Shown here in pieces: positions 1 to 16,513 of a stretch of 64,000 nucleotides of DNA. This DNA comes from Candidatus Sulfotelmatobacter sp. (lineage in GTDB: Bacteria > Acidobacteriota > Terriglobia > Terriglobales > Acidobacteriaceae). Where the stretch lies: assembly GCA_030041475.1 (NCBI GenBank), contig JASHNU010000075.1, positions 1 through 64,000 of the forward strand, written 5' to 3'. The translations under genes were made by a program, and so were the position numbers. The notes below the pieces were generated by a model. The model was not told the DNA's origin. It made no database searches and saw only the letters and a program-made list of their open reading frames with translations. How positions within the stretch are numbered: the stretch's first letter is position 1; each line of letters begins with the position of its first letter.

Positions 1-372
1 CGTGAGCGTGGCGATGCCGCTCATGCGTTGCAGGAAATTCAGGATCACGCGCTCGCAGGAGAGAATGACGCGCGCGTTGTGGCGGATCACGGCGACAGAT
101 TGTCCTTTGTGCAGGCGCACGCCGTCGAAAATTTCCGGATGCGTGGTGACTTCGTAGTGCGCGGTGACGGCGCCGTCGAGCGCGGCGTAGACGTCGAGAA
201 TGCGGGCCACGCAGCCGATGCCGGCGAGAATCGAATCCTGCTTGGCGAGGATGGTGGCCGAGGCGCGCTGATTGGCGTCGACGCAGGCGTAGCTGGTCGC
301 GTCGCGAGTGGCGCGGTCCTCGAGCAGCGCGTTCTCGAGGATGGCGGTGATGCGCCGTGAATTCCAGTCCAT
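1..372 (-). CDS. nadC: Nicotinate-nucleotide pyrophosphorylase (carboxylating), N-terminal part
   Basis: Read on the minus strand from an ATG at 370-372, the frame is open to the window edge, so only the first ~124 residues are present. The motif ERVILNFLQRMSGIATLT near the edge is the hallmark of quinolinate phosphoribosyltransferase, which converts quinolinate and PRPP to nicotinate mononucleotide in NAD synthesis. The preceding residues fit the N-terminal barrel-like domain (HKGQSVAVI). The gene lies just downstream of valS on the same strand, 41 bases away. The catalytic barrel lies outside the window. Confidence 0.9.
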   Translation of the reverse strand, partial: MDWNSRRITAILENALLEDRATRDATSYACVDANQRASATILAKQDSILAGIGCVARILDVYAALDGAVTAHYEVTTHPEIFDGVRLHKGQSVAVIRHNARVILSCERVILNFLQRMSGIATLT

Positions 373-413
373 AAGCAGGGGTCAGGGATTAGTGGTCAGT
401 TGTCAGGGTTCAG

Positions 414-3236
414 CTACTGACATCCTAATTCCCTCAGCTTCGACAGCGTCTTGTCTTTGAGCACCGCTAGTTCCTGTTGTTGCTTGCGCAGGTTCTCGAC
501 GACATTCGTCGGTGCCTTGGCCAGAAATTGCTCGTTGCCGAGTTGGCGTTGGCCATTGGCAATAGCTTTCTCCAGACGGTCCAATTCTTTCCTTTGGCGT
601 TCGCACTCGGCCTTAAGATTAATCCAGCGTTCGTGCGCCACATGAAAGTCGAATCTCGCGGTGTGCCGCGCCCCCTGCACAAGCGTTAATGGGCTGTTCA
701 CGAAGAGAATAGTCTCTACATTCGCAAGGCGCTCGACAGCACGTTGGTTTTTCTGTATGAGCCCTTGAATTTCAGGTTCGGGAGTATAAACGTGTAAGGG
801 CACCTTGGCCTTTGTCTCGACCTTCAGCTGAGCGCGTTCGTTCCTCACCCCGACGATCAAGTCCTGCAAAATGGCCATTTCGGTTTCAGCAGCGAGATCG
901 ACCTGAGATTCGTAGGCTTGCGGATAGGGGGCGAGCGCGATCGACTTGAGCGCCGGCTTGCCGTCGTGCATGGCCTGCCAGATTTCCTCCGTTATGAACG
1001 GCATGACGGGATGCAGCAGGCGCAGGGACGCGTCGAACAAATTCACAAGGTTCGAGCAGGCAATCTGTGCGAGTTTCTTGTCGACGCAGTCTTCAATGTT
1101 AAGGCGCGGCTTGATGAGTTCGAGATACCAGTCGCAGAATTCTCCCCAGAAAAAATCGTAGATGCAGTTCGCGCCTTCGTGAAAACGATAAGTGGCGAGT
1201 GCGTCGTTCACATCGGCCGCGACGCGGTTGAAGCGGGAGAGGATCCAGCGGTCTTCGAGGGTGACTGGTTGGAAGCGGGCGATGCCCTTGCTGTCGGGAC
1301 TTCGTCCCGACTGGACAGCTGAGGGCGGCTGTCCCCACATGGTTCCTTGTGAATCCCAAACGAACCCGATTCGATCCACGTTCATGAACATGAAGCGGGC
1401 GGCGTTCCAGATTTTGTTGGCGAAGGCGCGGTAGCCTTCGGTGCGGCTCTCGTTGAAGGCAATGTCGGTGCCGGGGGCGGCCATGGCCGCCAGAGTGAAC
1501 CGTGTCGCGTCGGTGCCGAAGCGCTCTATCACATCCAGCGGGTCGACGACGTTGCCTTTGGTCTTCGACATTTTTTGCCGCTCGGCGTCGCGCACGAGGG
1601 AATGAATGTAGACCTCGCGGAACGGAACACTGTCGTTCTTTTTATCAGCCCAGCCGCTAGCTTTCTTGATCGCCTCGTCCTGATGGTGCCCTTGCATGAA
1701 GTGGCAGCCGAACATAATCATCCGGGCGACCCAGAAGAACAAAATTTCGTAAGCCGTGATCAGCAGGGTGGTCGGGTAGAACACTGCCTGATCGCGCGTC
1801 TTCTCGGGCCAGCCAAGCGTAGTGAACGGCAGGAGTCCCGAGGAAAACCAGGTGTCGAGCACGTCGGGAACCTGCTCGAGTTTCTTGCCGGCGCACTTCG
1901 GGCACGTGGTCGGAGCTTCGCGGGCGACGATGACTTCTTTGCAGTCTTTATTCGTACACGTCCACGCGGGAATGCGATGGCCCCACCACAGCTGCCGCGA
2001 AACGCACCAGTCGTGGATATTGTTCATCCAGTTCAGATAGATCGTTCGATAGTTTTCGGGGACGATGCTGATTTCGCCGCTCTCGACGGCCTCTTTGGCG
2101 CGATCGGCTAGCGGCTGAATTTTCACGAACCACTGTTCAGAAAGGCGCGGCTCGATGACCGTTCCGCAGCGGTCGCACTTGCCGATGGAGAGCGTGTAGT
2201 CCTTTTCGGCGACCAGAAATCCCAGCTCGCGCAAATCGTGCAGTACTTGTTTTCTGGCTTCGAAGCGGTCCAGCCCTTTATAGCGACCGGCGTGCTCGTT
2301 CATGTGCGCGTGGTCGTCCATGACGTTGATCTGCGGAAGATTGTGGCGCTTGCCGGCTTCGAAGTCGTTGGGATCGTGCGCCGGAGTGACCTTCACCGCG
2401 CCGGTACCAAATTCGGGTTGCGCCAGCTCATCGGTGATGATCGGAATCTCGCGATTCATCAGCGGCAGCAGAACTTTTTTGCCGTGTAAATGCGTGTAAC
2501 GTTCGTCGGCCGCGTTGACGGCGATGGCGGTGTCGCCGAGCATGGTTTCTGGGCGTGTGGTCGCGACAGTAATAAATTCGGGCTTTCCTGCGGAAGATCC
2601 GTCCACAACCGGGTAGCGAATCTCCCACAATTTTCCGGCGACCTCTTCGTGCTTGACCTCGAGGTCGGAGATCGCGGTCTCGTGCCACGGGCACCAGTTC
2701 ACAATGTAGTTGCCGCGGTAGATCAGGCCCTCTTCATACAGGCGGACGAAGACCTCGCGCACGGCGTGCGAAAGATTTTCGTCCATCGTGAAGTACTCGC
2801 GGTCCCAGTCGACCGAGGCGCCCAGGCGCCGCATCTGGTCGAGAATGGCGCCGCCGTATTCGCGCTTCCACTCCCACACCCGCGCAATGAATTTTTCGCG
2901 GCCCAGGTCGCGGCGCTTCTTGCCTTCCTTGGCGAGCTGGCGTTCGACCATCATTTGCGTGGCGATGCCGGCGTGGTCGGTGCCCGGCAGCCACAGAGTG
3001 ATGAAGCCCCGCATGCGATGCCAGCGCACGATGATGTCCATCTGCGTCTGGTTGAGCATGTGGCCCATGTGCAGGCGGCCGGTGACGTTGGGCGGCGGCA
3101 GAAGGAGCGTAAAAACGGGTCGAGTTTCGCCTGCAGGAGGCGCGGGTACGGAGAAAAGTTTTTCGCGGACCCAGAAGTCGGCCCAGCGCAGCTCGATCGC
3201 GCCCGGCTCGTAGGATTTGGGCAATTCGTGAGGCAT
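414..3236 (-). CDS. valS: Valyl-tRNA synthetase
   Basis: A 940-residue class I aminoacyl-tRNA synthetase that charges tRNA-Val in the cytoplasm. The HIGH-type motif (HMGH) lies near residue 57 after PPPNVTGRL, the editing domain is in the middle, and the KMSKT signature is near residue 557. The C-terminal ~65 residues form the charged coiled-coil arm typical of ValRS. Length is normal apart from an odd stretch of about 22 residues (roughly 630-652, [19 protein letters not shown]) placed just before the conserved [10 protein letters not shown] anticodon-binding region. It is the in-frame translation of a palindromic repeat (see 1276-1345). The next features upstream are a short repeat-rich spacer and the left end of the mobile element. 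Confidence 0.97.
1276..1345. repeat. Palindromic interspersed repeat inside valS
   Basis: This stretch contains the inverted pair gtcgggacttcgtcccgac followed by ggcggctgtccccacat. The latter recurs almost unchanged inside the acyltransferase gene at about 41417-41433 (ggcggctgtccctacat). In valS it is translated without breaking the frame. Confidence 0.7.
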
Positions 3237-3351
3237 AGAAAGCAGTCAGCACTCAGGCGTCAGCAATCAGCCAGTCGAAAGCGGTCTCAACTGCGTGCTG
3301 AGTGCTGAAAGCTGAGTGCTGTTTCGAGTGTACAGGCGCAAGAAAAGAAGG

Positions 3352-3365
3352 GTCAAACCGTGCCG
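3352..3365 (+). repeat. Left 14-bp direct repeat (target-site duplication)
   Basis: gtcaaaccgtgccg directly abuts the left terminal inverted repeat. The identical 14-mer directly abuts the outer edge of the right inverted repeat at 16104-16117 in the same orientation. Paired direct repeats outside inverted termini are the footprint of staggered-cut integration. Confidence 0.93.
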
Positions 3366-3404
3366 GGGTAGGTGTATACCGACGGCAAAATGGACCCTCC
3401 CCCC
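3366..3404 (+). repeat. Left terminal inverted repeat (39 bp)
   Basis: Begins gggtaggtgtatacc and ends in a C6 run. It is the exact reverse complement of 16065-16103 over all 39 bases. The match stops at the junction with the 14-bp direct repeat, which fixes the element boundary. Confidence 0.95.
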
Positions 3405-3444
3405 TGGAGCGGGACCCGCCCGCGCTTGGGCTGAGAAAGCGAAG

Positions 3445-5043
3445 CTAAGACTTTAACCTCTTCAGGAGCTCTACAAACAAATTCTCGTCGGTCAGCCAGG
3501 TGCATTCGATGCACGCTGTCAAAGAAGCCGAAATTGTAGTGGGATGAATTGCTTTGAAGCCATGGTGTTGTCTAATGAACCAACCCAGGAGCAGGGAAAA
3601 GTCATGGCCGTGAATTTGATAACGAGCGTCATGTTTCAAGCTCGGTCGTTGCTCCAGAACGAACGATTTGACCTTATCCTGCAATTTCTCTTTGGGCCGT
3701 AGCCGAACCAAAGTTGCAATATAGTCTTTTTCTCTGAACTCTATATTGTCCTTCTTGCTGTTGTAAGCACAAAAGTCATGAAGATCAGGAACAGCACACC
3801 CGAGACCGAGATCTTGGTTCGCCATCCTAATTAGAAATGCTGTTTCGAGTGGTGCCCGAATTTGCGTCATAACAATATCGGGCCTCTTCGGAAATCCATT
3901 TGCCACCAGCCGAAACAGCTTTGCCAGGGCTCGCTCATTGAACGCGTACATCTCCAGTGCAGAGTAATCCGACAAAAGAAGCAATGAGCAATCGTAGATT
4001 GTTCCTTTCAAATAATCGAAATCAGCATCCGCAATGCAGACAACTTCGTTCACTTCAACTTCGTCATCTAGTAGGCAAGCGAGCGTTACTACTCGACCTT
4101 TGTTGCCGTCCTCTAGAGCCCGTTTCAGCACCTCACCGGTCGGAACCTCAACAGTTGCGATCTCGTAAACAGCAACGTCCGGGAGTCCAGATTCGATTAA
4201 GAAATGCTCGAAAAAGTGTTTGTCGCTCAATCCCTCAACGAAAACCTCCTGCACCTCCTTACCTTCAAGCTCGTGGAGAGCTACGATGTCATCGATAGTG
4301 CGTAACGGTTCGGCAAGCGTCAAGTGAGGGAAGTTGCTTCCTTCAACCCTGACGAAGGCAATGTCCAAGTTGGGGTCAATGTACTCAACTTTAGCATTGA
4401 AGGTCTGTCCGTTGCCGGTAGTGGCCGTCAGATTGGATTGACCCTTCGCAACATGTGCATTTGTAACTGCTATGCCGGTATCACTGACGAGAAATCCGGA
4501 GCCATGTCCTTCCGCACCACTCAGCAACAACACCGCCGAGTTTGCTCGACCAAATATCTCCTCCGAAGACAGGGCCGGTCGCATCGTTGCAGACCCGGTG
4601 CCCGCGAGAGTCGCTTGAACACTTCCTGTAAAAGTTGTGGACGCCTTTTCAAGTGTGAAGTTGAAAGTATCCGCCTGCAGGAGAAAGTAGTCTCCGTGAT
4701 AGGTTCCGTTGAACGCGATCCACTTATACGGACCTCTTGCCAGGTCCTGGTCCTTTGGCAGAAAACCATCCAGCATAATACGGGCGTGCAGTTGGTCTAC
4801 GAGTGCATGCTTGAGACAAAAGACGTTACCGCAGCCATGGTAGTACGCCTTAGGGACCTCGACTTTGTATGGAGTCTTTCCGACTACTCTTCCATTTATC
4901 TCGATGCTTGCACCTGGAGGATCACTGGTTATGGTCAGGTAGTCCTTCGCAAAACAAGTCGAAAGCAAAGATACGTGTATTGCAAGAAAGAGGCTGAGAC
5001 GTAGCAAGCTGTCTGTCACATTCGGTTTGCGCTTCAGAGCCAT
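3445..5043 (-). CDS. Chimeric ORF: secreted PEGA/trypsin-like protease N-terminus fused to a DUF4435 (TOPRIM-like) domain
   Basis: A 532-residue frame joining two unrelated parts. Residues 1-32 are a signal peptide. Residues ~35-65 (LTITSDPPGASIEING) are a PEGA motif. Residues ~160-245 match the first half of a trypsin-like protease (GHGSGFLVS, TNAHV for the histidine, DPNLDIAFVRV for the aspartate). The half with the catalytic serine is absent. From about residue 246 the sequence becomes a DUF4435 protein: RTIDDIVALHELEGK, VFVEGLSDK (TOPRIM-like Glu) and IADADFD (Asp-x-Asp). DUF4435 proteins usually start at this point, without a signal peptide. A fused product would export a normally cytoplasmic domain, so the join at about 4305 looks like a recombination scar. 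The start overlaps the end of the DUF3761 gene by 10 bases. Confidence 0.7.
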   Translation of the reverse strand: MALKRKPNVTDSLLRLSLFLAIHVSLLSTCFAKDYLTITSDPPGASIEINGRVVGKTPYKVEVPKAYYHGCGNVFCLKHALVDQLHARIMLDGFLPKDQDLARGPYKWIAFNGTYHGDYFLLQADTFNFTLEKASTTFTGSVQATLAGTGSATMRPALSSEEIFGRANSAVLLLSGAEGHGSGFLVSDTGIAVTNAHVAKGQSNLTATTGNGQTFNAKVEYIDPNLDIAFVRVEGSNFPHLTLAEPLRTIDDIVALHELEGKEVQEVFVEGLSDKHFFEHFLIESGLPDVAVYEIATVEVPTGEVLKRALEDGNKGRVVTLACLLDDEVEVNEVVCIADADFDYLKGTIYDCSLLLLSDYSALEMYAFNERALAKLFRLVANGFPKRPDIVMTQIRAPLETAFLIRMANQDLGLGCAVPDLHDFCAYNSKKDNIEFREKDYIATLVRLRPKEKLQDKVKSFVLEQRPSLKHDARYQIHGHDFSLLLGWFIRQHHGFKAIHPTTISASLTACIECTWLTDENLFVELLKRLKS

Positions 5044-5351
5044 TTGGCTACTCCGCCGTGGTGCGAGCAGGTGCCCCGCCTGCTCTGGCTGAAGCTATAG
5101 GTTCCATCGCGACATTGCGCTGTTGCTCCTTTCGGAGGTGCGGAACAATTCTCAGGCCGGGGAACCGTTTGCCCTTTGCTGTTTACGTAGGTGCCGTTAT
5201 TGGTGCAATCAGCCCGCTCTTGATTTGCTTTCGAGGTTCCAGAGGACGTATTTGTGCTTGGCTGAGGTGATGGCTGGGTCTGGGGAACTACTTGCTGCAG
5301 AAACAGGACCAGGACTAAACACGCAAGGGCGTAGGGGCGAAGGCGTCGCAT
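5034..5351 (-). CDS. Small secreted DUF3761-like protein
   Basis: 105 residues with an N-terminal signal peptide (hydrophobic YALACLVLVLFLQQVV), a Ser/Thr/Pro/Gln-rich linker, and a C-terminal cysteine-containing module ending CRDGTYSFSQ...GTCSHHGGVAKWL, typical of DUF3761. The ATG at 5351 is preceded by gggggaa, a usable ribosome site. The gene overlaps the 3' end of the Cas1 frame (5209-5376 in another frame) and the start of the chimeric protease ORF. It belongs to an apparently intrusive ~1.07-kb block (about 4305-5376) that replaced the end of cas1. Confidence 0.7.
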   Translation of the reverse strand: MRRLRPYALACLVLVLFLQQVVPQTQPSPQPSTNTSSGTSKANQERADCTNNGTYVNSKGQTVPRPENCSAPPKGATAQCRDGTYSFSQSRRGTCSHHGGVAKWL

Positions 5352-6198
5352 CTATCGTTCCCCCAAATCGGAGTAAGCTGTCACGAGCTGACGTGTCAAC
5401 GTGCGGCATTCCAAGACCAGGGTCCAAGCCAAGGCAAGCCGCCGCGAGCCTTGCCTCAGCTTCCAAGAGCGAGTACAGAAAATTCAAAATTGCATTCGGG
5501 GGATTGCAAGCTAGACGGGGTGATCCGGTGAGCGGCGACACACGTGCACCGAAACTCAGCCAATGAATAGGCAAACGCGGCAATTGATTCTTTGGAAAAT
5601 TGATCGGAAGCGAGGACCATGCAGACCAGTAGGCGCGGGCAGCTTGGGACTCAATCAGCCGGATCGTGCTGAGGCTGTCGGCGCTTGGTAAATCGGCGCG
5701 AAATCGGGCGATGACATTGGCTGTCGAAGTGTCCAAGAGTTTGTTTCGCGCAACCTCTTCCTGTGCTGCAAGCTTCCGGTTGATCAGCTCGCGGGAAATG
5801 TGTAACGCTGCGCCGGAAGAATGGGCGATGGCTTGGGCGCGGCGAAGTTTGGCGTCTGAAGGTCGGACCGGACCAGTTGTGGCCAGAACTTTGCCATTCC
5901 TTTCAAGCATCACGAAGCTGGCATCTTGGTCTGCCAGCCATTGGAGAGCGGCGAGAGAAATGAATCCGTCAGAGCCGATGATGACCAGCCGTTTCAGCCC
6001 ATGGCCGACGCGGGCAAGCCGAATTCTGCGCCGCTCGTGGCCGATACCGTCCTCGATTTCGAGATGGCCGCATTGCATTCGGACTTTGATGCCGTAGCCG
6101 GAGAGCGCCAGAACGCCACTTCTGCCGACCGGAGATTTGCGGGAAGAGACGGGTTGCGGTAGGGTGCGTGAAGCTGCCATCGGAGCTGATACCTCCAT
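5209..6198 (-). CDS. cas1: Cas1-family integrase (putative casposase), C-terminally truncated
   Basis: 329-residue ORF; residues ~27-275 are recognisably Cas1. The N-terminal beta-sandwich reads GVLALSGYGIKVR, CGHLEIEDGIG and RLVIIGSDGFISLAALQWL. The helical domain has the first catalytic Glu in LIESQAARAYWSAW (E183), then NPPNAILNFLYSLLEAEARL and the catalytic His in GLDPGLGMPHVD (H266). The frame is lost after ARDSL (residue ~275, base ~5376), exactly where Cas1 proteins continue with the catalytic DLxE motif. A shifted frame reads SDLGER and stops. What follows is antisense-free sequence belonging to the DUF3761 gene, so the third metal ligand and the C-terminal ~60 residues are missing. 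An ATG at 6180 has a GGAGG upstream and may be the true start. No cas2, other cas gene or CRISPR array is nearby, and the gene sits within terminal inverted repeats. It is probably inactive as an integrase. Confidence 0.88.
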   Translation of the reverse strand: MEVSAPMAASRTLPQPVSSRKSPVGRSGVLALSGYGIKVRMQCGHLEIEDGIGHERRRIRLARVGHGLKRLVIIGSDGFISLAALQWLADQDASFVMLERNGKVLATTGPVRPSDAKLRRAQAIAHSSGAALHISRELINRKLAAQEEVARNKLLDTSTANVIARFRADLPSADSLSTIRLIESQAARAYWSAWSSLPINFPKNQLPRLPIHWLSFGARVSPLTGSPRLACNPPNAILNFLYSLLEAEARLAAACLGLDPGLGMPHVDTSARDSLLRFGGTIDATPSPLRPCVFSPGPVSAASSSPDPAITSAKHKYVLWNLESKSRAG

Positions 6199-6366
6199 GG
6201 TGGTCAGGGCTTGTCGGCTGCTTCCAACAGTCCGGCAGGCCCGTGCAAATCAAGGATCTCCTTCATGATAAAACACTCATCACCCCAAAAGAAGGTCACA
6301 TCTGACTGAAAAATAAGATAGTTACCATAAAGTTGATCTTCGGTCACTTCCTGCTTGACATGATCC

Positions 6367-6385
6367 AAGGCTAACAGTTAGCCTT
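6367..6385. promoter_or_regulatory. Perfect 19-bp palindrome, probable operator of the toxin-antitoxin pair
   Basis: aaggctaac-a-gttagcctt is a perfect inverted repeat (9+1+9). It lies 53 bases before the likely start of the DUF4258 gene, in the 240-base divergent region between cas1 and that gene. MqsA-type antitoxins bind similar short TAAC/GTTA palindromes, so autoregulation by the downstream antitoxin is the simplest reading. It may also control cas1. Confidence 0.6.
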
Positions 6386-6437
6386 AAATCAACTTTGCGC
6401 TTGCCCTCCCCCAAGCCAGAAAACTGTGAGGAAGGTC

Positions 6438-6815
6438 ATGGATGAAGCTAGAGTCTTTGTCTACAAAGGACCGGCGGTTGATGCATCATGCAAAGCAAAA
6501 CCAGAAGCTCCCATATCTCCAGCGAACGCCATGGAGATTATCCGAGCGGCCTTCTTTGCGGGGCGAATGCAGATCACAGATCACTTTCGACAACAGGCAA
6601 TTACGCGCCGATTTGATCTGCCGGATGCAGCGAACGCGATCAGAGATGGAGTTCTTCGCGGAGACCCTGAGTTTTGTCCCGAACGTCGGAATTGGAAATA
6701 TCGGATTATTGCCGATGTGGAGGACAGGAGGTTTGAGGTGGTTGTCGCGTTAGATCCTTCAGAGGACTACGAGAGATCGCCGCTAATTGTTCTTATCACG
6801 GGTTATTGGAGGTAG
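6438..6815 (+). CDS. DUF4258-like protein, probable toxin of a type II toxin-antitoxin pair
   Basis: About 125 residues from an ATG at 6438 preceded by gaggaagg; an in-frame GTG lies at 6426. The middle carries ITDHFRQQAITRRFDLPDAANAIRDG and the end RRFEVVVALDPSEDY...PLIVLITGYWR, the pattern of small DUF4258 proteins (short alpha-beta fold, possibly RelE/BrnT-like nucleases). It is followed with a 23-base gap by an MqsA-like zinc-finger/HTH gene, a common toxin-antitoxin order. The toxin role is inferred from family and context; no catalytic residues can be assigned. Confidence 0.65.
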   Translation: MDEARVFVYKGPAVDASCKAKPEAPISPANAMEIIRAAFFAGRMQITDHFRQQAITRRFDLPDAANAIRDGVLRGDPEFCPERRNWKYRIIADVEDRRFEVVVALDPSEDYERSPLIVLITGYWR

Positions 6816-6838
6816 AACAGCACGTGAACGGAGGAAAT

Positions 6839-7465
6839 ATGGAGCGCACGGAGCACAGCGGATCCGGCTTGGAGCGGAAGTGCTACGAATGTGGCCGGGC
6901 AATGATTGGGAAGAGGGAGAACTACTCTTACCGAGAAGTTGGTCTGAAGTCGGTTGTCCTGCTTAACATCGTCGTCTACCACTGCAAATGCGGAGCAATT
7001 GTCCCAGAAATTCCCTACGCGGGAATTCTGCACAACTGTATTGCGATGAGCATCCTTGAGAAAAAGACACTTGTGTCGGGTGAAGAGATTCGCTTTCTTC
7101 GCAAGACAGCCGGTTACTCGGCTACTGAACTCGCCCGGGTGATGGGCATGGATAAGGGAACCGTGTCGCGTTGGGAAAACACAAAAAAGACCATCGGTAA
7201 GGAATCGGACCGGCTCCTTCGGCTAGTTTGTTTTGCTCGGATGATGGAACGGTTAGCCGGGGTGAATGCGAAGCAGATTGGAGACCGTGACCTGGCAAAT
7301 AACTTAGTTCGCATCCAGCAAATGGTGCGCGAGTTGAAGCTTACCGCTGTGTTGGAGCAAATCGACCCAGAGTTGGAAGCTTCGAAACCAATCCGAATTG
7401 ATCCTGAGCAGTTGGTTCTTGAGGCCATCCCAGGCTTCGTCACGCACGAGGCAACTTTACAGTAA
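6839..7465 (+). CDS. MqsA-like antitoxin: zinc-finger plus Xre-type HTH regulator
   Basis: 208 residues from the ATG at 6839, chosen because cggagg sits five bases upstream; the frame opens at 6806. The N-terminal module has CYECGRAM and CKCGA, two CxxC-type pairs spaced as in the zinc domain of MqsA/YgiT antitoxins. The middle reads LVSGEEIRFLRKTAGYSATELARVMGMDKGTVSRWEN, a standard HTH_3 domain. A helical C-terminus of ~90 residues follows. It most likely neutralises the upstream DUF4258 protein and represses the pair through the palindrome at 6367-6385. On a transposon such a pair would act as a stability module. Confidence 0.8.
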   Translation: MERTEHSGSGLERKCYECGRAMIGKRENYSYREVGLKSVVLLNIVVYHCKCGAIVPEIPYAGILHNCIAMSILEKKTLVSGEEIRFLRKTAGYSATELARVMGMDKGTVSRWENTKKTIGKESDRLLRLVCFARMMERLAGVNAKQIGDRDLANNLVRIQQMVRELKLTAVLEQIDPELEASKPIRIDPEQLVLEAIPGFVTHEATLQ

Positions 7466-7487
7466 AACAACTATTGTCCGAGCGAGC

Positions 7488-7511
7488 GCCCGCTCACTTC
7501 ACTGAGCGGGC
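7488..7511. terminator. Bidirectional hairpin terminator between convergent genes
   Basis: gcccgctca-cttcac-tgagcgggc is a 9-bp perfect stem with a 6-base loop. On the plus strand it is followed by ttcttatt, and on the minus-strand side by a mixed A/T stretch. It lies between the antitoxin stop and the stop codon (7499-7501) of the convergent 241-residue gene, which falls in the loop. Confidence 0.65.
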
Positions 7512-8224
7512 TTCTTATTGATACGGGCGCTGGGTTTTGCGAAACGAGGTCGCTGTCGCAACTCGCTTGCGGCTCTGAGTTCTGCTTCGAATCGATCCCG
7601 CATTTTTCTGAGAGCGTCCGCGTCGTGGTTCTCTTTTCCACACTTACAAAACTCATCAAAGCACTGCACCAACTCTTCGGCAGTCAATCGCTCTTTCTCG
7701 TAACAGATAACAAGTTGGAGCAGCTGGCGGTGGACCGCGTCATCCTGAAATAGTGCAATAGGTCCCTTGCCGAACGTCAGAATTCGAAGATCGCGCTCCG
7801 TTCGCGCGATTTTGTCCCACGCATCGAGGTTGCCTTGCGCATCTTTCATCCGAGTTGCCCGCAGTGATTGCCCATGGCGACGAAAGTGGAGATACTCTCG
7901 AATTCCCTCTGAATCGGGGAGCGGCGGGTCAAGCGTCAAATAGCTAAAAGCTAACGCGTTGAAGGGTGTTCCTTTATGCCGCTTATCGATCTCAATGAGC
8001 TTCTGCTCAGACCACCGTTCCAATCGCGCCCTCTTCTCAGCAATTTCCTTTGCTGCTTTCGAAAGCTGATGTTGGTTCTTAGTGCTTGCTAGTTGCTTGC
8101 TCCTTCGCTCCAGTTCAGCCATCCGGTGTTCGAACGCTTGATTCAGCTCAGCCAGCTCAAAGAACACACCGGGGAGTTTCTGCCTCCAGCTCCCCTGTTG
8201 CTGTGTCTTCCGATGTCTGCCCAC
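7499..8224 (-). CDS. Uncharacterised coiled-coil protein of the element
   Basis: 241 residues, start GTG at 8224. It is not recognised. Residues ~30-85 are highly charged and heptad-like (LNQAFEHRMAELERRSKQLA...AEKRARLERWSEQKLIEIDKRH), suggesting a coiled coil. The middle contains LHFRRHGQSLRATRM and ARTERDLRILTFGKGPIALFQDD. Near the C-terminus there are two cysteines (CKCGKEN), and the end is basic. No signal peptide or membrane segment is visible. It is divergent from the HTH-HNH-PolB operon, with 80 bases between the starts, and convergent with the antitoxin. This position suggests an element-encoded accessory or regulatory protein. Confidence 0.6.
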   Translation of the reverse strand: MGRHRKTQQQGSWRQKLPGVFFELAELNQAFEHRMAELERRSKQLASTKNQHQLSKAAKEIAEKRARLERWSEQKLIEIDKRHKGTPFNALAFSYLTLDPPLPDSEGIREYLHFRRHGQSLRATRMKDAQGNLDAWDKIARTERDLRILTFGKGPIALFQDDAVHRQLLQLVICYEKERLTAEELVQCFDEFCKCGKENHDADALRKMRDRFEAELRAASELRQRPRFAKPSARINKKPAQ

Positions 8225-8280
8225 CTCAGGATTCTAATCCGGACACAAAAAAAGATTTCACGTCCTTTTAATTCTGCAGC

Positions 8281-8308
8281 AAGAGGAGTTCATATGGTCG
8301 CATCGTGA
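8281..8308 (+). promoter_or_regulatory. Four-codon leader ORF overlapping the HTH gene start
   Basis: gaggag is followed six bases later by ATG GTC GCA TCG TGA (8294-8308). The stop codon overlaps the GTG start (8305) of the next gene. The best ribosome site therefore serves the mini-ORF, and the HTH gene could be translated by coupling. Confidence 0.4.
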
Positions 8309-8844
8309 GACGCAAACCACAACGCGGTAAGGCGCGCAAGCCGAAAGCGTCGGCAAAACGGATCCTGCCTGCGCGTGGCGGCCAAGCCACTAGAGGGAAC
8401 AACCAATCGGCTCGTGACCGTGCCCTCAAGGCCCTCTGGGCCATGCGACAGGGTGACACGCTCTCGAAAGCTGCCCGCAACAACGGTGTCAGCAGTCGTA
8501 CCGTCAAGCGTTACGTGGGATCAGCCCTCGTGCAGGATCGTCCTAGCGGGCGCATCCGCGCGACCAAGAGTGACCGGCTCATTCGCTACTTGCAGATACC
8601 GGGCCCTGATGGCCAACCACGAGACATAAACGTGCGCGGGTCGAAGACGGCGAGCAAGGTCGCGGCCTACAAAGCAGATATCAACCGTCTGTTACGCGGT
8701 GATCGCCACGCAATGGACAAGTGGCGGAGTCGAAAAATTGCCGGATTCGAACTGGTAACGGACCCCAAGGTACTCGTCGCACAAGCTCGTAAGGAGTTAC
8801 TGCCCTATTCGCTCTACCGCTCCCTCGCAGGCGGTGCCGCATGA
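8305..8844 (+). CDS. HTH DNA-binding protein of the element
   Basis: 179 residues from a GTG start. The first ~35 residues are Lys/Arg-rich. Residues ~35-75 (RDRALKALWAMRQGDTLSKAARNNGVSSRTVKRYV) form a homeodomain-like helix-turn-helix of the kind found in transposon and phage proteins. The C-terminal half (ASKVAAYKADINRLL, KWRSRKIAGFELVTD) is helical and unassigned. It is the first gene of a tightly packed operon: its stop overlaps the start of the HNH-like gene, which overlaps the polymerase start. HTH proteins are regular members of casposons, but whether this one binds the element ends or a promoter is unknown. Confidence 0.72.
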   Translation: MRRKPQRGKARKPKASAKRILPARGGQATRGNNQSARDRALKALWAMRQGDTLSKAARNNGVSSRTVKRYVGSALVQDRPSGRIRATKSDRLIRYLQIPGPDGQPRDINVRGSKTASKVAAYKADINRLLRGDRHAMDKWRSRKIAGFELVTDPKVLVAQARKELLPYSLYRSLAGGAA

Positions 8845-9137
8845 AGTTGAGGCGATCACGCATGCGCTGCTGTGCCATTTGTGGATCAACGAGGAACATT
8901 GAAGAGCATCACCTCGGGCTATTCCAACATGCTCCGTTCTTCACGATCCCACTGTGCCAGCCGCATCACCAAGCGGTGACCCTCGCCATCGTTAGGGCTG
9001 GGGTAGACCCGCGCTACACAGACATTGTTGAGGAGCGTGCACGACGCGCACGAATGGCGGCATACGTGTTTCTGTGGTTTCTCGACGAACAGTTAGCAGA
9101 AAGCGAAAACCGCAATCACCATCGGAGGTCGTTATGA
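8841..9137 (+). CDS. Small HNH-like (treble-clef) nuclease
   Basis: 98 residues. CAICG (CxxC) is followed by EEHHL and, after 15 residues, LCQPHHQAV, the spacing of an HNH motif. The second cysteine pair is CxxH rather than CxxC, so metal binding is somewhat atypical. A helical, Arg-rich segment and a Trp/Phe-rich end follow. HNH endonucleases are recurrent companions of Cas1 and PolB in casposons. The ATG overlaps the end of the HTH gene (ATGA), and its own stop overlaps the polymerase ATG (9134), so the three are translationally coupled. Confidence 0.7.
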   Translation: MKLRRSRMRCCAICGSTRNIEEHHLGLFQHAPFFTIPLCQPHHQAVTLAIVRAGVDPRYTDIVEERARRARMAAYVFLWFLDEQLAESENRNHHRRSL

Positions 9138-11185
9138 CAAACATTCACGACATTTTCGTTCGTGCCTATGCAATTCCAGCATCGGAAGACCCTGACGACA
9201 ATCGCAACCATCGTTCGAGCGATGACGCTAAGTGGCCGTCCTATGCCCTGATTTTGGATAGTGAGACCCGGATTACATTCGATCAGTCGTTAACGTTTGG
9301 CATCTTTCGCTTCTGTGAACTCAAAGACACAAAATATGTCGTTACCAGAGAAGGGATCTTCTACGCTGATGCTCTGCCCACAAAAGACCGTCAAGTCCTG
9401 CGCGCCTATGCACGAACGGCGGTGTCGGACGCTAAGTCATTTCCACCCGAATTCCCGCTCTACTCGCGGTCCGACTTTATGAAGAGAGTGTTTTGGCCTG
9501 CGATCAAGCGAAATGGTGCACTCATCTGCGGACTAAACTTGCCATTCGACCTCGCGCATCTCGCGTTGGCATGGAGTCGCGCTGAGCACAACGAATGGTC
9601 GCTTACGATGTCGCAGTACTCAAATGGAATTGAAAACAGCAATGTTCCGCGCATTTTGATAACACCGATCGACGGCAAAAAAGCATTTATCAGGTTGGCA
9701 AAACCGTGGAAACCGGACGAGTGGAAAGATAAGGGTAGATCGCATTTCCTGGATCTGAGAACACTTGGCTGGGCCTTATTCAACCGTTCTTATTCACTGA
9801 AGCGTTTGTGTGCAGAACTGCAAACTGAAAATCAAAAGATCGATCATGAACCGACCGGCGAAGTTACGATTGAAGAAATCGAATATGCCAGACAGGACGG
9901 GCGCTGCACCGTCGATGCACTCAACGCACTGAAGGAGGAATTCGACAAACATCCGATTAGCTTGAATCCCTGCCACGCATACTCGCCTGCGAGCATTGCC
10001 AAAAGTTATCTCGATGCCATGGGCCTTATCAGGCCAGCCGAGAAATTCAAGATTTCAGCGAAACACCATGGCATTGCGATGCAAACATACTATGGCGGGC
10101 GCTCGGAGACGCGCATCCGTCGTACCGAGGTCCCCGTCGTTCCTGTCGATTTCACCAGCGAATATCCGACGTGCTGCGTGCTACTGGGTCTGTTCGACAT
10201 TCTGACAGCTCGGAGAGTCACATTTAAAGACGATACTGCCAACATCCGCCGACTCATCAAATGGGTCTCTCTGAATCGTTGTTTTGACCCAAAATTGTGG
10301 AAGCAATTCAACTTCTTTGCACTCGTGCAGCCCGACAACGACATTCTGCCCGTACGTACCGTCTATGACAGCGTGACCCAGAATATCGGCAACAATTACC
10401 TGACTTCTGATACACCACTGTGGTTTGCAGGCCCCGATGTCATTGCGTCCGCAATCAGGACAGGCAAAGCGCCACGCATCATCCGCGCCGTTCGCATCGT
10501 GCCACACGGCAAACAGGCTGGCATGAAAAGCGTGAATTTGCGTGGCAGCATGGTTGAAATCAATCCGTACAAAGATGATTTGTTCCGCAAAGTCATTGAA
10601 CAACGAAAACTCTATAAGGCAGACAGGAAGCTGTATTACTGGCTCAAGATCTTTGCGAATTCGATCTACGGGTTCTTCGTTGAGCTGATTCCCGAATTGC
10701 TCAACACGAACGTTCAACTTGAAGTTTATTCGGGTGACAAGAAGTTTACCGATTCGTCAGATGTGATCGAAAAACCCGGACGTTGGTTCTTTCCGCCATT
10801 GGCATCGATGATCACGTCGGCTGGTCGTTTGCTGCTCGCGATGGCGGAGGAAAGCGTAAACCGGAAGAAAGGAACATACCTGTTCTGCGATACCGATTCG
10901 TTGGCTATTGTCAGCGCGGAGAACGGCGGCACACTGAAGATCGCTGGCGCTGAAGATCGCCGCATCCTGTCGTGGACCGAGACGCAGAAAATCGTTAACA
11001 GATTCACTTCGTTGAACCCCTACAACAGAAAAGCCGTCAAAGGGTCAATCCTCAACCTGGTAGACGCAAACTACATCGATTCCGATCCAAGCAACCCACA
11101 GCGCCAACTTTGGGGCTACAGCATAGCTGCCAAACGCTATGCACTATATGAGAAAAACACACAAACCAAACATCGCAATCGTTGA
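9134..11185 (+). CDS. Family B DNA polymerase: exonuclease, palm and fingers (N-terminal part, frameshifted)
   Basis: 683 residues from the ATG at 9134, chosen for cggagg upstream and the ATGA overlap with the HNH gene; the frame opens at 9074. The 3'-5' exonuclease motifs are Exo I LDSET (~42-45), Exo II NLPFD (~135-139) and Exo III YARQDGRCTVD (~251-261). The polymerase motifs are A VDFTSEYP (~338-345), B KIFANSIYG (~505-513) and C FCDTDS (~584-589), followed by AAKRYAL (KxY-type). All catalytic acids are present. The frame ends abruptly after YALYEKN, while the next 300 residues continue in the +1 frame. Removing one A from the A5 run at 11153-11157 joins them into a polymerase of about 985 residues. 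It presumably replicates the element or fills integration gaps. Confidence 0.88.
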   Translation: MTNIHDIFVRAYAIPASEDPDDNRNHRSSDDAKWPSYALILDSETRITFDQSLTFGIFRFCELKDTKYVVTREGIFYADALPTKDRQVLRAYARTAVSDAKSFPPEFPLYSRSDFMKRVFWPAIKRNGALICGLNLPFDLAHLALAWSRAEHNEWSLTMSQYSNGIENSNVPRILITPIDGKKAFIRLAKPWKPDEWKDKGRSHFLDLRTLGWALFNRSYSLKRLCAELQTENQKIDHEPTGEVTIEEIEYARQDGRCTVDALNALKEEFDKHPISLNPCHAYSPASIAKSYLDAMGLIRPAEKFKISAKHHGIAMQTYYGGRSETRIRRTEVPVVPVDFTSEYPTCCVLLGLFDILTARRVTFKDDTANIRRLIKWVSLNRCFDPKLWKQFNFFALVQPDNDILPVRTVYDSVTQNIGNNYLTSDTPLWFAGPDVIASAIRTGKAPRIIRAVRIVPHGKQAGMKSVNLRGSMVEINPYKDDLFRKVIEQRKLYKADRKLYYWLKIFANSIYGFFVELIPELLNTNVQLEVYSGDKKFTDSSDVIEKPGRWFFPPLASMITSAGRLLLAMAEESVNRKKGTYLFCDTDSLAIVSAENGGTLKIAGAEDRRILSWTETQKIVNRFTSLNPYNRKAVKGSILNLVDANYIDSDPSNPQRQLWGYSIAAKRYALYEKNTQTKHRNR

Positions 11186-12092
11186 CCCCAAAGCGCATGG
11201 AATTGGATTCCTGTACTCACCCCAAGACTCTCCAAAGGGCTGGGACAAAGAAGCTCCACGCTGGGTTTACCAGCTCTGGGATTACATCTTGCGAGGTGCG
11301 TTGGAGCTACCGAATAAACCACCGTCTTGGGTCAATGTTCCCCAGATGATGCGCCTTACCATCACGACGTACAACGTTCTGGAGATGCTCGGAGAATGGG
11401 AGATCGCACGTCCATACAACTTCCTGTTGCTGCCCATGGTCGATCCGCTTTATGGATTCGCATTCCATCGGCAAGCAAACGAAAAAGTGCTGCTCGTCTG
11501 CCCGTTTTCATCGAAGCAAAAGCAGTGGTTTGACCTAGAATGCGTGAACGTTTATGACGGCAAGAAATACAGGATGCTCGATTGCAAGAAGGCTAAAGGG
11601 AGCATTCGGTACAACGTGGTCTTTCCGTCACAGTTCGCACATCTCATCATTCAATATCAGCAACACCCGGAAGCGAAGAGCCTTGCGCCCGACGGATCGC
11701 CCTGCGCAACTGAAACACAGGGATTATTGCAACGTGCGCACGTGATCGCTGGCGACATTCGTTATGTTGGCAAGGAAACAGATCGCAAATGGGAAGAGGG
11801 CGAAGAAATCAGCGTGCTGGAATTTGCCGCAACCGAATACGGGCGAAGAGGGAAGGTCATCGCGAGCGATGAAGTGAAGGCGGCAATCCAGAGAATCGGA
11901 ATCAACAAGTGCGCGCGAGAGAGCGGGTTTCATCGTGCCAACTTCATTCGCAAGTTGATGCGCGATGTGCCTGTGAAACGTAACTCGTATACTGAGTTTG
12001 TACGCTGGCTAAAAGGTTGCAACGAAGTGCATCTTGACCAACCTAAAGTGCCGGAGGATAATCCTGGGGTTTCAGTCGTAAGTCGGACTTAG
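11139..12092 (+). CDS. Family B DNA polymerase, C-terminal part (thumb plus HTH-like tail) in shifted frame
   Basis: 317-residue frame overlapping the preceding ORF by 47 bases and offset by +1. From KPNIAIVDPKAHGIGFLYSP onward it reads as the direct continuation of PolB after the AKRYALYE motif, so it is the thumb region rather than a separate enzyme. Residues ~225-295 (AAIQRIGINKCARESGFHRANFIRKLMRDVPVKRNSYTEF) look like a helix-turn-helix tail. Either the gene is broken by an extra A at 11153-11157, or a +1 slip there makes the full product. Independent initiation at 11139 or 11148 has no good ribosome site. It is followed by a small secreted-protein gene after 14 bases. Confidence 0.75.
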   Translation: MHYMRKTHKPNIAIVDPKAHGIGFLYSPQDSPKGWDKEAPRWVYQLWDYILRGALELPNKPPSWVNVPQMMRLTITTYNVLEMLGEWEIARPYNFLLLPMVDPLYGFAFHRQANEKVLLVCPFSSKQKQWFDLECVNVYDGKKYRMLDCKKAKGSIRYNVVFPSQFAHLIIQYQQHPEAKSLAPDGSPCATETQGLLQRAHVIAGDIRYVGKETDRKWEEGEEISVLEFAATEYGRRGKVIASDEVKAAIQRIGINKCARESGFHRANFIRKLMRDVPVKRNSYTEFVRWLKGCNEVHLDQPKVPEDNPGVSVVSRT

Positions 12093-12106
12093 TGGAGATC
12101 CAACAG

Positions 12107-12493
12107 ATGCGGTGCTGCTTTATTGCTTTTCTTGCCTGTTTGATCGGTGCGAATGCTGCTGCGCAGTGCCCAATCCAACCACGCCAGGTATCGTTTGACC
12201 GCGTTAGAAGCAGCATTATCATTCGCTATTACAATTCAACTACTCGGGCGATCCGCGATGTGCAATTCAGTGTGACGAATGAGGACGTATCGCAGCGTAC
12301 TGTGCTCGGCGAATTCAGGGCAAACAATATTGTTCGTCCGAGACAAGAGCAAACAGTTGTTTTCCCAAACGTCTCTGGAACGGCCTTCGGAGGGAATATC
12401 GCTTTAGAAGTCGTGCGAGTGTCATTTGTTGACCGTTCGCTCTGGACTCCTGATCACGACAAACCATGCAAGATACAGAGCGTGCAACCGTAG
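12107..12493 (+). CDS. Small secreted protein, unknown
   Basis: About 128 residues from an ATG at 12107 preceded by gtggag; the frame opens at 12092. MRCCFIAFLACLIGANAAAQ is a signal peptide with a probable cleavage after AAA. The mature part has one early and one late cysteine (CPIQPRQV, KPCKIQ), consistent with a disulfide-linked beta-sandwich: SIIIRYYNSTTRAIRDVQFSV looks like strands. No family is recognised. It sits between the polymerase and the large lipoprotein on the same strand and is part of the element's cargo. Confidence 0.65.
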   Translation: MRCCFIAFLACLIGANAAAQCPIQPRQVSFDRVRSSIIIRYYNSTTRAIRDVQFSVTNEDVSQRTVLGEFRANNIVRPRQEQTVVFPNVSGTAFGGNIALEVVRVSFVDRSLWTPDHDKPCKIQSVQP

Positions 12494-12501
12494 GCATAGG
12501 G

Positions 12502-15500
12502 ATGCTGACGAAGATTATAACGAGGCTGGCCGTCGCGCTTTGCATGACCCTTGCAGTGGTCGCCTGTGGCGGCGGATCAGGTGGACAATCCGGGCAATCA
12601 CCACCACCTCCATCGTTTAGTGTCGTTGCTACGCCGTCAAATCCGTCCATAGCTCCGGGAACGTCATCCACAATTCAACTCTCCGCCGTTCCGCAAAATG
12701 GATTCAGTGGTACAGTTGCCGTCACTGTCTCGGGGCTGCCTTCTGGCCTCACAGCGACTCCTTCATCACTATCGCTCCAGAGCACACCACAAATTGTTAC
12801 GTTGATTGCTGCCAGCACCCTCGCGGATGGCAATTATTCTTTTTCTCTCAACGGGACAAGTGGGAACTTGAACAGTTCCACCACGGTGAACGTAGGCGTG
12901 GAAACTTTAGCGAATTTCACCATTATTCAGCCATTGATCCCACAGATCGTTATAAGGTTCGGATCTACGGCTCAGATACAGTTGCAGACGGAGGAACAGG
13001 GGTCGGGGCTGTCCAATTACCTGGTGAACTTTTCTGTAACTGGTGTCCCATCGGGCATCACGGCAACACTTGCGCCGAATCCCGTCACCGTCGGCGAAAC
13101 GACCACTTTGAGCGTGACCGCTCCGACGAATTCACCATGGATTCAGGGCGTCTTGATCAATGTTGTGGGCACACCTGGCGCGTCAGTAGAGACCCAGAGC
13201 CTGGCGCTTGATTTGGTGGTAGCGCCTCCCCCCGGGAGTATCCCGAACAACCAGACGAGCTATCTCCGAACGGATGATACACCGCAGTCCATCGTATATG
13301 ACGCAGCGAATCAACACATCTTTTCCAGCGACTATTTATTGAATCGAGTTGATGTCGTCTCGACGGCGAACAGGCAACTGGTGAAAAGCATTCCTGTCCT
13401 CAGCCCCCATGGACTTGCTCTCACAACAGACGGTAATGAGGTCCTCGTGGGTAGCGACTCGCAACAGGTTGAAGCCATTAGCACCAGCAGTTTGCAGGTC
13501 GTGCAGCAATGGATACTGCCTCTGTGGGAGGGGAGGACCTACGGACTATACGACCTTTTTCCGTTATCCGACGGCACCGTAGCGTTTTCTGCCCAGGGTA
13601 TTCTGAATGGTTACCTCAGCGTTTGGAATCCCACGAACAACACTACAACTGCGCTACCGGTGCCGACGGCTTTGAACCAGAATGTCTGCGTCGTAGCAGG
13701 TGCGGGTACTAACATTTTCATCGGCTCCTGCAGTGAGCCTGGAGTTGCGTCAGTCTATAACACGGCCACCAATGAGTTTTCCCCACTCCTGAACTTTCCG
13801 GGCTTTATCTACCGCGCTGCTGCTAGTCCTGACGGCTCTCAATTCATAGTGTCGGATGACACATATGGAATTGGTCTATACAACTCGCAGCTCCAGGCTG
13901 AGACGTTTCTCACTCCTCCAGATGGCTACGGCACCTTCATCTTCAGTCAAGACGGCTCGAATATCTATGTGGAAGAGGGCATCCTAGCTGTCTTTGATGG
14001 ATCAGGAAACTTTATTAACACCGCACCTTCACTTGGCACGATTCCTCCTGGAGCCGAAATCGGACCGTGTCCTGATTCGGAGACACCCTTTGCCGTCGAC
14101 TCCAGCGGAATTGTTTTTGGCTCCGCCGACCATGGCATAGCTTTTGATGATTCGACGTATTCCGTCAATTTTGGTTCCGGATTTGGTGGGTTTACGTGCT
14201 TGGGATTGACTCTAACCCCGGATTCTGGCCCGGTTAACGCAACCACATCAACGAATTTCACTTCAGTTGAGGAGTTCGGCTCAGTACCAGATGTTTGGTT
14301 CGGAGGCACTCGCGCGGCCCAGGTGAGCACTGGGCAGAGTACACCCGGCCCGTTGAGTGCTGTCGCACCAGCGGTATCACAGCCAGGCCCGGTTGACGTA
14401 AAGATCATCCAACCGAGCGGGAATGAAAGCTATAACCCCTTAGCTTTCAGTTATGGCCCTAATCTGATGTTTGTAAATGGAGACACATCAACGCCGACCG
14501 GTGGCACTACTTCCTATATCACAGGCGTAGGAATGCCCACCGATGCGAGCCAAGTACAAGTTAGCGTTGGCGGTCAGAATGCAACCATCACGAGCGCAGT
14601 GCAGGCTCCCTTCTATGGCGTCTACTTCCCGTTTTCATATCCGTATCCAGCCGTCCAACTCACGGTTACTCTGCCACCGGGTACAGGAGACCAAGACCTG
14701 GTTGTGACGACTTCTTCGGGGTCCTCGACACTGCCGAAGGCCATTCACTACGTCCAAAGCGTGACGGACTATCCCTCGCCAAATAGTCCATTCCAGTCGA
14801 TACTGTTGGATAGTACGCGCAATCAGCTTTATCTATCAGCTGGCACCCACATCGATGTGTTTTCGTTAGCGACTTCTCAATTTCTTGCTCCTTTCACTCC
14901 GCCCTCTCTAAATGGGCAAGCGGCGTTTCACGGTCTGGCACTTACGCCAGATGGTTCGCAATTGCTGGCCGCAAACTTCCCCGACGGATCGGTCGCACTG
15001 ATTAATCCGGATGAACCAAGCTCAGCAACTGCTGTTCAAGTCATTCCCCCCGGGACCCCTCTCAACCCAGGCCCCGATAATGTCGTTACCACTAATACAG
15101 GTCTGGCTTTCATAGAAGCCGCGACCCCCGATAGCGAAGGATGTGGTAACGCGGTCTACGAACTGAATTTGTCAACGTTGCAAGTGACGGCAGTGAATTT
15201 GATCAACTTGTTCTGCATACAAGCTGAAGGATTTCCGATGGCCGCATCGGCGGACGGATCAAAAGTGCTTCTCGCAACGACGGACATCAGCGGGCCGCAA
15301 CAGGTAACAGTCTACGATTCCGCAAGCAACACTTGGGCGACGAACATATCGGTAACCGAAAACTTTGGAGGCAACGCCGCAATCTCTCCAAATGGAACGG
15401 TGTTTGCGACTGGAAGTAGTCTCGTTGACGCGAACGCCAATGTGCTTGGTGCCTTGGCATGGCAGGATGTTTTCATGTCCCCAGGGCCATACCCGTCGCT

Positions 15501-15993
15501 GCGACTGGAGACGGTGTCTGATGGCGGCAGCCTTGTCTACATTCCCTACGCTAGCTTTATGCATTTCACAGTGTCTTATCCGAGCTTCGTAGATATTTTC
15601 GATGTGAATCACGGAGCGATGTTACATCGGCTGGTTTTGACCGAGCAGGTGCAGTCGGTCACGAACGCCATGGCGATCGACGCCTACGGTCAGAATATCT
15701 ACCTCATCACGAACGCCGGATTGACGATCGTGAAGGTCGCTGCGGCGCCATTGGCCATTGGAAGTGTGAGTCCGACATCCGCCTCCCCTGGAACCACGAT
15801 TACGGTTTCCGGCAGCGGTTTCCTGACCGGGGCTTCAGTGACCGCTAATGGAACAGCCGCCACATCGACACTTGTAAATGCGAACACGCTTCAAGTAGTT
15901 GTTCCTGCTCTCAGCGCAGGTCCGGTCCAGATTACCGTCACCAACCCCTCCGGTGGGATGTACGCATTAGACAACGCATTCACAGTTCCTTAG
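12502..15993 (+). CDS. Large surface lipoprotein with beta-propeller and IPT/TIG domain (cargo)
   Basis: About 1163 residues from the ATG at 12502; the frame opens at 12466. The signal sequence ends in the lipobox VVACGGG, indicating a lipoprotein. Residues ~40-240 are Ig-like repeats (FSVVATPSNPSIAPGTSST, VTVSGLPSGLTATPSSLSL). The middle and later parts contain repeated LALTTDGNEVLV / LALTPDGSQLLA units typical of YVTN/SMP-30-like beta-propellers. The last ~85 residues (ISPTSASPGTTITVSGSGF-type) are an IPT/TIG domain. It resembles acidobacterial surface proteins and ends 72 bases before the right inverted repeat, so it is carried by the element. Substrate is unknown. Confidence 0.8.
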   Translation: MLTKIITRLAVALCMTLAVVACGGGSGGQSGQSPPPPSFSVVATPSNPSIAPGTSSTIQLSAVPQNGFSGTVAVTVSGLPSGLTATPSSLSLQSTPQIVTLIAASTLADGNYSFSLNGTSGNLNSSTTVNVGVETLANFTIIQPLIPQIVIRFGSTAQIQLQTEEQGSGLSNYLVNFSVTGVPSGITATLAPNPVTVGETTTLSVTAPTNSPWIQGVLINVVGTPGASVETQSLALDLVVAPPPGSIPNNQTSYLRTDDTPQSIVYDAANQHIFSSDYLLNRVDVVSTANRQLVKSIPVLSPHGLALTTDGNEVLVGSDSQQVEAISTSSLQVVQQWILPLWEGRTYGLYDLFPLSDGTVAFSAQGILNGYLSVWNPTNNTTTALPVPTALNQNVCVVAGAGTNIFIGSCSEPGVASVYNTATNEFSPLLNFPGFIYRAAASPDGSQFIVSDDTYGIGLYNSQLQAETFLTPPDGYGTFIFSQDGSNIYVEEGILAVFDGSGNFINTAPSLGTIPPGAEIGPCPDSETPFAVDSSGIVFGSADHGIAFDDSTYSVNFGSGFGGFTCLGLTLTPDSGPVNATTSTNFTSVEEFGSVPDVWFGGTRAAQVSTGQSTPGPLSAVAPAVSQPGPVDVKIIQPSGNESYNPLAFSYGPNLMFVNGDTSTPTGGTTSYITGVGMPTDASQVQVSVGGQNATITSAVQAPFYGVYFPFSYPYPAVQLTVTLPPGTGDQDLVVTTSSGSSTLPKAIHYVQSVTDYPSPNSPFQSILLDSTRNQLYLSAGTHIDVFSLATSQFLAPFTPPSLNGQAAFHGLALTPDGSQLLAANFPDGSVALINPDEPSSATAVQVIPPGTPLNPGPDNVVTTNTGLAFIEAATPDSEGCGNAVYELNLSTLQVTAVNLINLFCIQAEGFPMAASADGSKVLLATTDISGPQQVTVYDSASNTWATNISVTENFGGNAAISPNGTVFATGSSLVDANANVLGALAWQDVFMSPGPYPSLRLETVSDGGSLVYIPYASFMHFTVSYPSFVDIFDVNHGAMLHRLVLTEQVQSVTNAMAIDAYGQNIYLITNAGLTIVKVAAAPLAIGSVSPTSASPGTTITVSGSGFLTGASVTANGTAATSTLVNANTLQVVVPALSAGPVQITVTNPSGGMYALDNAFTVP

Positions 15994-16064
15994 TGCGCAC
16001 GCGCACGCCCGCGCAAGGGGGGTGCTGCAACATGGGGGGATGTCGCGCAAAGAATTTCCCGCGT

Positions 16065-16103
16065 GGGGGGAGGGTCCATTTTGCCGTCGGTATACACCTA
16101 CCC
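16065..16103 (-). repeat. Right terminal inverted repeat (39 bp)
   Basis: Exact reverse complement of 3366-3404. It starts with a G6 run and ends ggtatacacctaccc. Outward it is followed at once by the 14-bp direct repeat. Confidence 0.95.
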
Positions 16104-16117
16104 GTCAAACCGTGCCG
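16104..16117 (+). repeat. Right 14-bp direct repeat (target-site duplication)
   Basis: gtcaaaccgtgccg, identical and in the same orientation as 3352-3365. Without the element the site would read gtcaaaccgtgccg followed by ggggggttatacccacc. Confidence 0.93.
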
Positions 16118-16293
16118 GGGGGGTTATACCCACCGAGGAAATTTTGCTCCACCCCTCAGGGGTGTAAGCCGGAGAGAGGCGTGCGTGCGCACGAGCAAGA
16201 GCAGGAGGTGATTTCTGCGATACTTACAATTCAATTTTGTACACGTGACTCAACCGTGTCTTTCCCCGTGCCTTGCCGAGTCGTGATCGTGCC
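16118..16293. other. Gene-free flank right of the element
   Basis: It starts with a G7 run and ttataccc, loosely echoing the G-run and tatacc of the inverted repeat. The rest is GC-rich hairpin-like sequence (cacccctcaggggtg). A longer open frame crossing the inverted repeat (16022-16372) shows no coding character. No gene is called here. Confidence 0.5.
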
Positions 16294-16513
16294 TCAGCTA
16301 TTTCCGGTCGTCAACGTTCCTGCCTGGATAATTGTGAAAACGATCCCCTCCGGAGCCACAGTTCGTGTGTAGCCGGAATCCAGGGAGGCGGTGGTCGGAA
16401 CCTGCGCATAGGTTAGACACCTCTGCTGAACAGTCTCTTCCGCCCAGCGCAGTGCGTTAGCGCTTGTGGCGCCAGTCGGCAGAACCGGCTTGCAGCCCTC
16501 AATCCGCCGACAT
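16294..16513 (-). pseudogene. Open frame without a start codon, possible phage-structural fragment
   Basis: On the minus strand a stop-free frame runs from about 16513 to a TGA at 16294-16296. It reads GCKPVLPTGATSANALRWAE...CLTYAQVPTTASLDSGYTRTVAPEGIVFTIIQ, which looks like ordinary protein. It has no ATG, GTG or TTG near its beginning. It begins where the 70-residue gene at 16499-16711 ends but in another frame, so it may be a frameshifted or deleted downstream gene. Function unknown. Confidence 0.35.

Follow-up and report, generated by a model that had tools for sequence, protein, structure and literature searches.

Casposons and Related Cas1 Integrases

Casposons are mobile elements thought to be ancestral to CRISPR immunity. 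Among the described groups, the closest to the element reported here is family 3, represented by AceAut-C1 of Candidatus Acetothermum autotrophicum, in which terminal inverted repeats (TIRs) and a target site duplication (TSD) accompany cas1, polB, HNH-like and helix-turn-helix (HTH) genes, as in the acidobacterial element (PMC4046053). The C-terminus of the AceAut-C1 Cas1 comprises a zinc-binding region and an HTH, which are also found in the intact acidobacterial relatives, and it is exactly this part that the copy described below has lost.

The casposons of Methanosarcina mazei share with the acidobacterial group the Cas1 fold and the active-site residues, a TSD of the 14-bp class, and the insertion in tandem at one target (PMC6977970, PMC9939771), tandem insertion having already been reported for M. 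mazei (PMC9939771). In contrast, their target is the end of a tRNA-Leu gene and the enzyme is full length, with an active site formed by E162, H232, and E247 and a C-terminal HTH that is required for activity; in fact, a casposase deleted for the HTH region only gives no integration (PMC6977970). The casposase of A. boonei requires a motif located in the leader, 9–15 bp upstream of the insertion site (PMC6614799). CRISPR spacer acquisition by Cas1-Cas2 is similar in that units are inserted with polarity at a fixed leader with a short target duplication, a likeness of working and not of membership; in contrast to spacers, the acidobacterial units are whole transposons with TIRs.

Boundaries and Gene Content of the Acidobacterial Casposon

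The window analysed here is a stretch of 64,000 nucleotides at the start of an 81-kb contig of Candidatus Sulfotelmatobacter sp. The casposon occupies positions 3366–16103 and is delimited by a left TIR (3366–3404, plus strand) and a right TIR (16065–16103, minus strand) that are identical over 39/39 bp, flanked by a TSD of 14–17 bp, GTCAAACCGTGCCG(GGG), at 3352–3368 and 16104–16120, the final three G being common with the TIR. The perfect ends described in the initial annotation were therefore found again, while the fairly recent insertion deduced from them is plausible but undated, and perfect TIRs are silent on whether the deletion discussed below preceded or followed insertion.

The combination of TIRs and TSD with cas1, an HTH gene, a small HNH-like gene, polB, and cargo corresponds to the hallmarks of casposons (PMC4046053). 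The Cas1-family integrase is represented by a significant Pfam match limited to codons 1–275, and the family B DNA polymerase by motifs conserved with the relatives, in a gene that is frameshifted and matches Pfam weakly. The element is closest in architecture to the bacterial family 3, whose traits are a bacterial host and, in some members, a zinc-binding and HTH C-terminus of Cas1; the intact relatives show both and the truncated copy lacks the second.

On the left side, a cargo gene for a 532-aa protein with PEGA, trypsin-like, and weak DUF4435 matches in Pfam (3445–5043, minus strand), for which no full-length relative was found in 45 congeneric genomes, is followed by a second cargo gene on the same strand, encoding a DUF3761 protein with a signal-peptide-like start (5034–5351; PF12587, E=3.5e-26). 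Beyond cas1, two overlapping plus-strand genes at 6426–7465, DUF4258-like (6426–6815; PF14076, E=1.7e-4, below the cut-off) and MqsA-like HTH (6806–7465; PF01381, E=1.3e-6), look like a toxin-antitoxin pair. They are followed by a conserved element gene of unknown function (7499–8224, minus strand) with homologues in L050, L051, L062, and L095 and, on the plus strand, by an HTH protein kept in nearly all relatives (8305–8844; HTH_23, E=9e-5) and a small HNH-like nuclease candidate that is conserved in the relatives and has only a weak Pfam match (8841–9137).

The family B DNA polymerase is encoded on the plus strand in two overlapping open frames, 9074–11185 and 11139–12092, where the relatives have one frame of 972–999 aa. 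The first part of the gene (9137–11185) is 70% identical to the PolB of locus L047 and includes all polymerase motifs up to KRYALYEK, DFTSEYPT, ANSIYG, FCDTDS, and KRYALY being conserved with the relatives; the second (11139–12092) encodes the C-terminal part in a different frame. One extra A in the A run at about 11153–11157, due either to mutation or to a sequencing error, would explain the frameshift. No solved structure related to this PolB was found by sequence. In locus L043 (4710–9524) of another genome, beside a second casposon, only the 3′ part of polB (74% DNA identity to window 11114–12010) is found together with a window-like TIR, and this stretch is a fragment of a sister element. 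The last cargo gene of the window casposon, at 12466–15993 on the plus strand, encodes a large secreted beta-propeller/TIG protein (PF01833, E=1.2e-14).

Neither Cas2 nor a CRISPR array was seen within the casposon, no Rfam family or tRNA was found in window positions 1–20000, and the scan of viral contigs with the Cas1 protein and with the Cas1 alignment gave no match.

The Casposase Remnant

The open reading frame at 5209–6198 on the minus strand is a casposase-like Cas1, as first proposed from the letters alone; it matches PF01867 (E=8e-29) and the match ends at profile position 229 of 283. Pfam, alignment, and blastn converge in assigning only 5374–6198 to cas1, that is, codons 1–275 of about 515. 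In particular, homology to ten relatives stops after ARDSL (in HVDTSARDSL) at codon 275, base 5374, and the blastn DNA matches of several loci end at 5375–5378. The closest relatives, mostly of the same genus, show 54–77% identity across the greater part of the 275-residue query. The open frames of the relatives, mostly of about 510–530 aa, go on with ACDLMEP and what remains of the Cas1 domain, together with two CxxC pairs and, at the C-terminus, an HTH (HTH_3). About 240 residues, including the rest of the Cas1 domain, both CxxC pairs, and the HTH, are hence missing, about four times the 60 or so supposed initially.

The catalytic Glu (LIESQ) and His (PHVD) are retained. In the alignment with 6opm, a Glu located 15 residues past the His corresponds to the E of DLxE; this third catalytic residue lies beyond codon 275, so that the protein holds two of the three catalytic residues and is indeed cut before its last motif. 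The equipment expected of an autonomous casposon, a full Cas1 catalytic triad and a C-terminal HTH, is incomplete in this copy, from which the third residue, the CxxC pairs, and the HTH are absent. The impression that the C-terminus is not nearby was correct also on a larger scale, as tblastn gave nothing convincing in the window and the genome search gave nothing.

Origin of the Truncation

The preferred reading, which can be given a probability of roughly 0.87, is that of a casposon with an internally deleted cas1, now non-autonomous. The casposon sits at the -35 box of the promoter that drives valS in an acidobacterium (Terriglobia); an internal deletion of about 0.85 kb would account for the loss of the last ~240 cas1 codons and of the spacer to the next gene, by which cas1 codon 275 would have been fused to the leader of the DUF3761 cargo gene. 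The remaining 275-aa protein, devoid of the third catalytic residue and of the CxxC/HTH region, would be inactive, polB is frameshifted as well, and the outcome would be a non-autonomous derivative with intact ends, movable only by a casposase supplied in trans.

The bases that follow the break speak for this reading. Positions 5352–5375 (minus strand) hold the 5′ leader that precedes the DUF3761 gene, joined directly to the cut cas1; they contain the 10-mer TACTCCGATT, which is also present in the leader of the homologue of another genome (locus L144) at the same distance from the ATG within one base, the two leaders reading CTACTCCGATTAAAGGAGCAGGAA-ATG in the other congeneric genome and TTACTCCGATTTGGGGGAACGATAG-ATG in the window. 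Moreover, in that other genome (G016) the DUF3761 gene is located about 120 bp downstream of the C-terminal end of a casposase (95 residues, 73% identity), which indicates that the cas1-DUF3761 order predates the break and is not private to the window. The join is explained by a deletion of about 0.85 kb (730 + 120 bp) whose two ends have a few bases in common (AGCTTA/AGCTA). The size is an estimate, because no sister of this same element with an undeleted cas1 turned up, and the G016 cas1 that lies beside DUF3761 is likewise only a 3′ fragment.

The initial annotation had instead seen a loss of register at about base 5376, where the DLxE motif should follow, with a shifted frame that reads SDLGER and stops. 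That a mere shift of frame, real or a sequencing error, occurred immediately ahead of DLxE, leaving the motif in another frame while the remainder decayed, is now very improbable: SDLGER can be read and CGATTTGGGGGAA is similar to CGATTTGATGGAA of one relative, but the bases past codon 275 do not significantly resemble the sequence with which cas1 continues in 41 relatives, with a score no better than that of shuffles, the same bases match the DUF3761 leader of another genome, and the Cas1 C-terminus is absent in every frame. The SDLGER reading comes from the ribosome-binding leader of the DUF3761 gene and is best taken as a coincidence.

Equally slight is the chance of an assembly chimera in which two molecules were joined at 5374. 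Contig ends often interrupt casposon loci, and in one relative cas1 contains an N gap with duplicated bases; nevertheless, the window casposon lies on a single contig, its TIRs and TSD agree between the two sides of the cas1 junction, no other cas1 fragment is present in the genome, and the cas1-DUF3761 order recurs in another genome.

A natural short Cas1 subfamily, which the initial annotation had named as the finding that would overturn its interpretation, was rejected: among 39 loci from another genome collection, fetched with the Cas1 alignment, none ends at codon 275, 31 having an uninterrupted Cas1, one running off its contig, and seven being broken otherwise. A programmed break point shared among elements was also rejected, since L051/L092, with a small shift of frame close to codon 275, keeps its C-terminus and L056/L089 has an assembly gap (NN), so there is no common site.

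The 275 codons contain no further stop, and conserved columns are changed at 2 of 82 positions (0–6 in intact relatives), a lack of excess changes that fits, on this comparison, a recent loss. A short Cas1 retained for a function of its own, for example repressing or poisoning the full-length casposases of other elements, would also account for this preserved frame, but it is very improbable given that recent deletion explains the same pattern, no other relative stops at codon 275, and no full-length casposase is left in the genome as a target. The truncated casposase alone is ordinary transposon decay.

Mobility and a Second Element with Identical Ends

Self-mobility of the window casposon appears to be lost, since a protein devoid of both the HTH region and a catalytic residue should be inactive; the proposal that the copy could move only with a Cas1 supplied in trans agrees with the absence of these parts. 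Mobilisation in trans would be possible, and no donor is present in the assembly: no other Cas1 was found in its 112 contigs, whose completeness of 99.6% leaves slight room for a missed copy.

The second intact copy suggested for a search was therefore not recovered, but the search revealed a 1.8-kb element (G000:C58:38767-40573, corresponding to L039 2768–4574) with TIRs identical over 39–40 bp and a duplication of its own. Its genes are one for a protein of 178 aa and a frame that Pfam weakly matches as HNH/ATPase-like, and Cas1 is lacking. Neither this element nor the window casposon should have a working cas1, and both would need an external casposase. The flank of the 1.8-kb element beside TTGAC resembles another casposon end.

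Insertion at Sigma70-like Promoters

The host gene downstream of the target is valS (414–3236, minus strand), named by sequence reading and encoding a valyl-tRNA synthetase of 940 aa; the same valS start is found beside the elements of L046, L047, and L067. A promoter scan identified a sigma70-like promoter of valS, TTGACC-N18-TACACT (3327–3356, minus strand), as the only promoter-like site in 3150–3500 (0.0 expected), with the insertion at the end of TTGAC, leaving the promoter intact.

The relatives that are complete with TIRs and TSDs are L046/L063, L047/L070, L049/L074, L050/L088, L055, L062, L067, L072, L086, and L087; L079 and L084 can be added, although their TIRs are weak. TTGAC is found at one TSD edge in every complete relative except L084 (within one base in L079). 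When L079 and L084 are left out of the main count owing to their weak TIR calls, TTGAC is at the TSD edge in all ten scored elements with stronger TIRs and TAnnnT follows at 17/18 bp in nine of them; over the twelve targets scored, TAnnnT occurs at 17 or 18 bp in ten, against 0.3 expected from shuffles, targets in the same gene not being independent. In fact, the valS site is common to the window, L046, L047, and L067, another gene is the target in both L055 and L062, and L086 looks like L087, which leaves about six distinct genes among the strong cases. For most targets the promoter leads into a gene start within about 55–130 bp, and the genes, named by eye, are valS, radical-SAM-like, serine/threonine-kinase-like, HTH membrane-protein-like, and an rplU-like operon. 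A casposon-like end lies 6–9 bp from a conserved TTTGAC at 14 of 28 congeneric valS loci (0.28 expected); several other congeneric valS loci look empty, which shows that the promoter predates the insertions.

It is likely, on these data, that this acidobacterial lineage targets the sigma70 promoter itself, the integrase cutting at the -35 TTGAC and the -10 box, located some 20 bp beyond it, serving as the leader signal; successive elements would pile up with CRISPR-like polarity to one side of the promoters of housekeeping genes, most of all that of valS, and Cas1-less derivatives would move with a borrowed casposase. The targets listed for casposons in PMC4046053 are, in contrast, intergenic sites, tRNA 3′ ends, and the aEF-2 gene. 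Promoters are an apparent new target class for casposons, as no report of promoter targeting was found in the literature examined, although its novelty is not certain. If true, the promoter-anchored, polarised insertion by a Cas1 would bear on the origin of leader-proximal spacer insertion in CRISPR, and the intact relatives allow a direct test of it. The truncated casposase leads, in this way, to a bacterial group of casposons that is widespread and of which many members are intact, as well as to a non-autonomous derivative whose TIRs are identical, and this family with its target specificity, rather than the single lesion, is the part worth following.

Insertions also appear to be stacked at the target. 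Abutting the TSD, the end of an older casposon with another TIR type, resembling those of L050/L071, is found at 16120–16155 (plus strand), with no partner end in the window. In L046, L050, L062, and L087, casposon ends with other TIRs abut, by eye, the TSD away from the promoter; newer elements seem to enter beside the promoter, and older ones to be pushed away from it.
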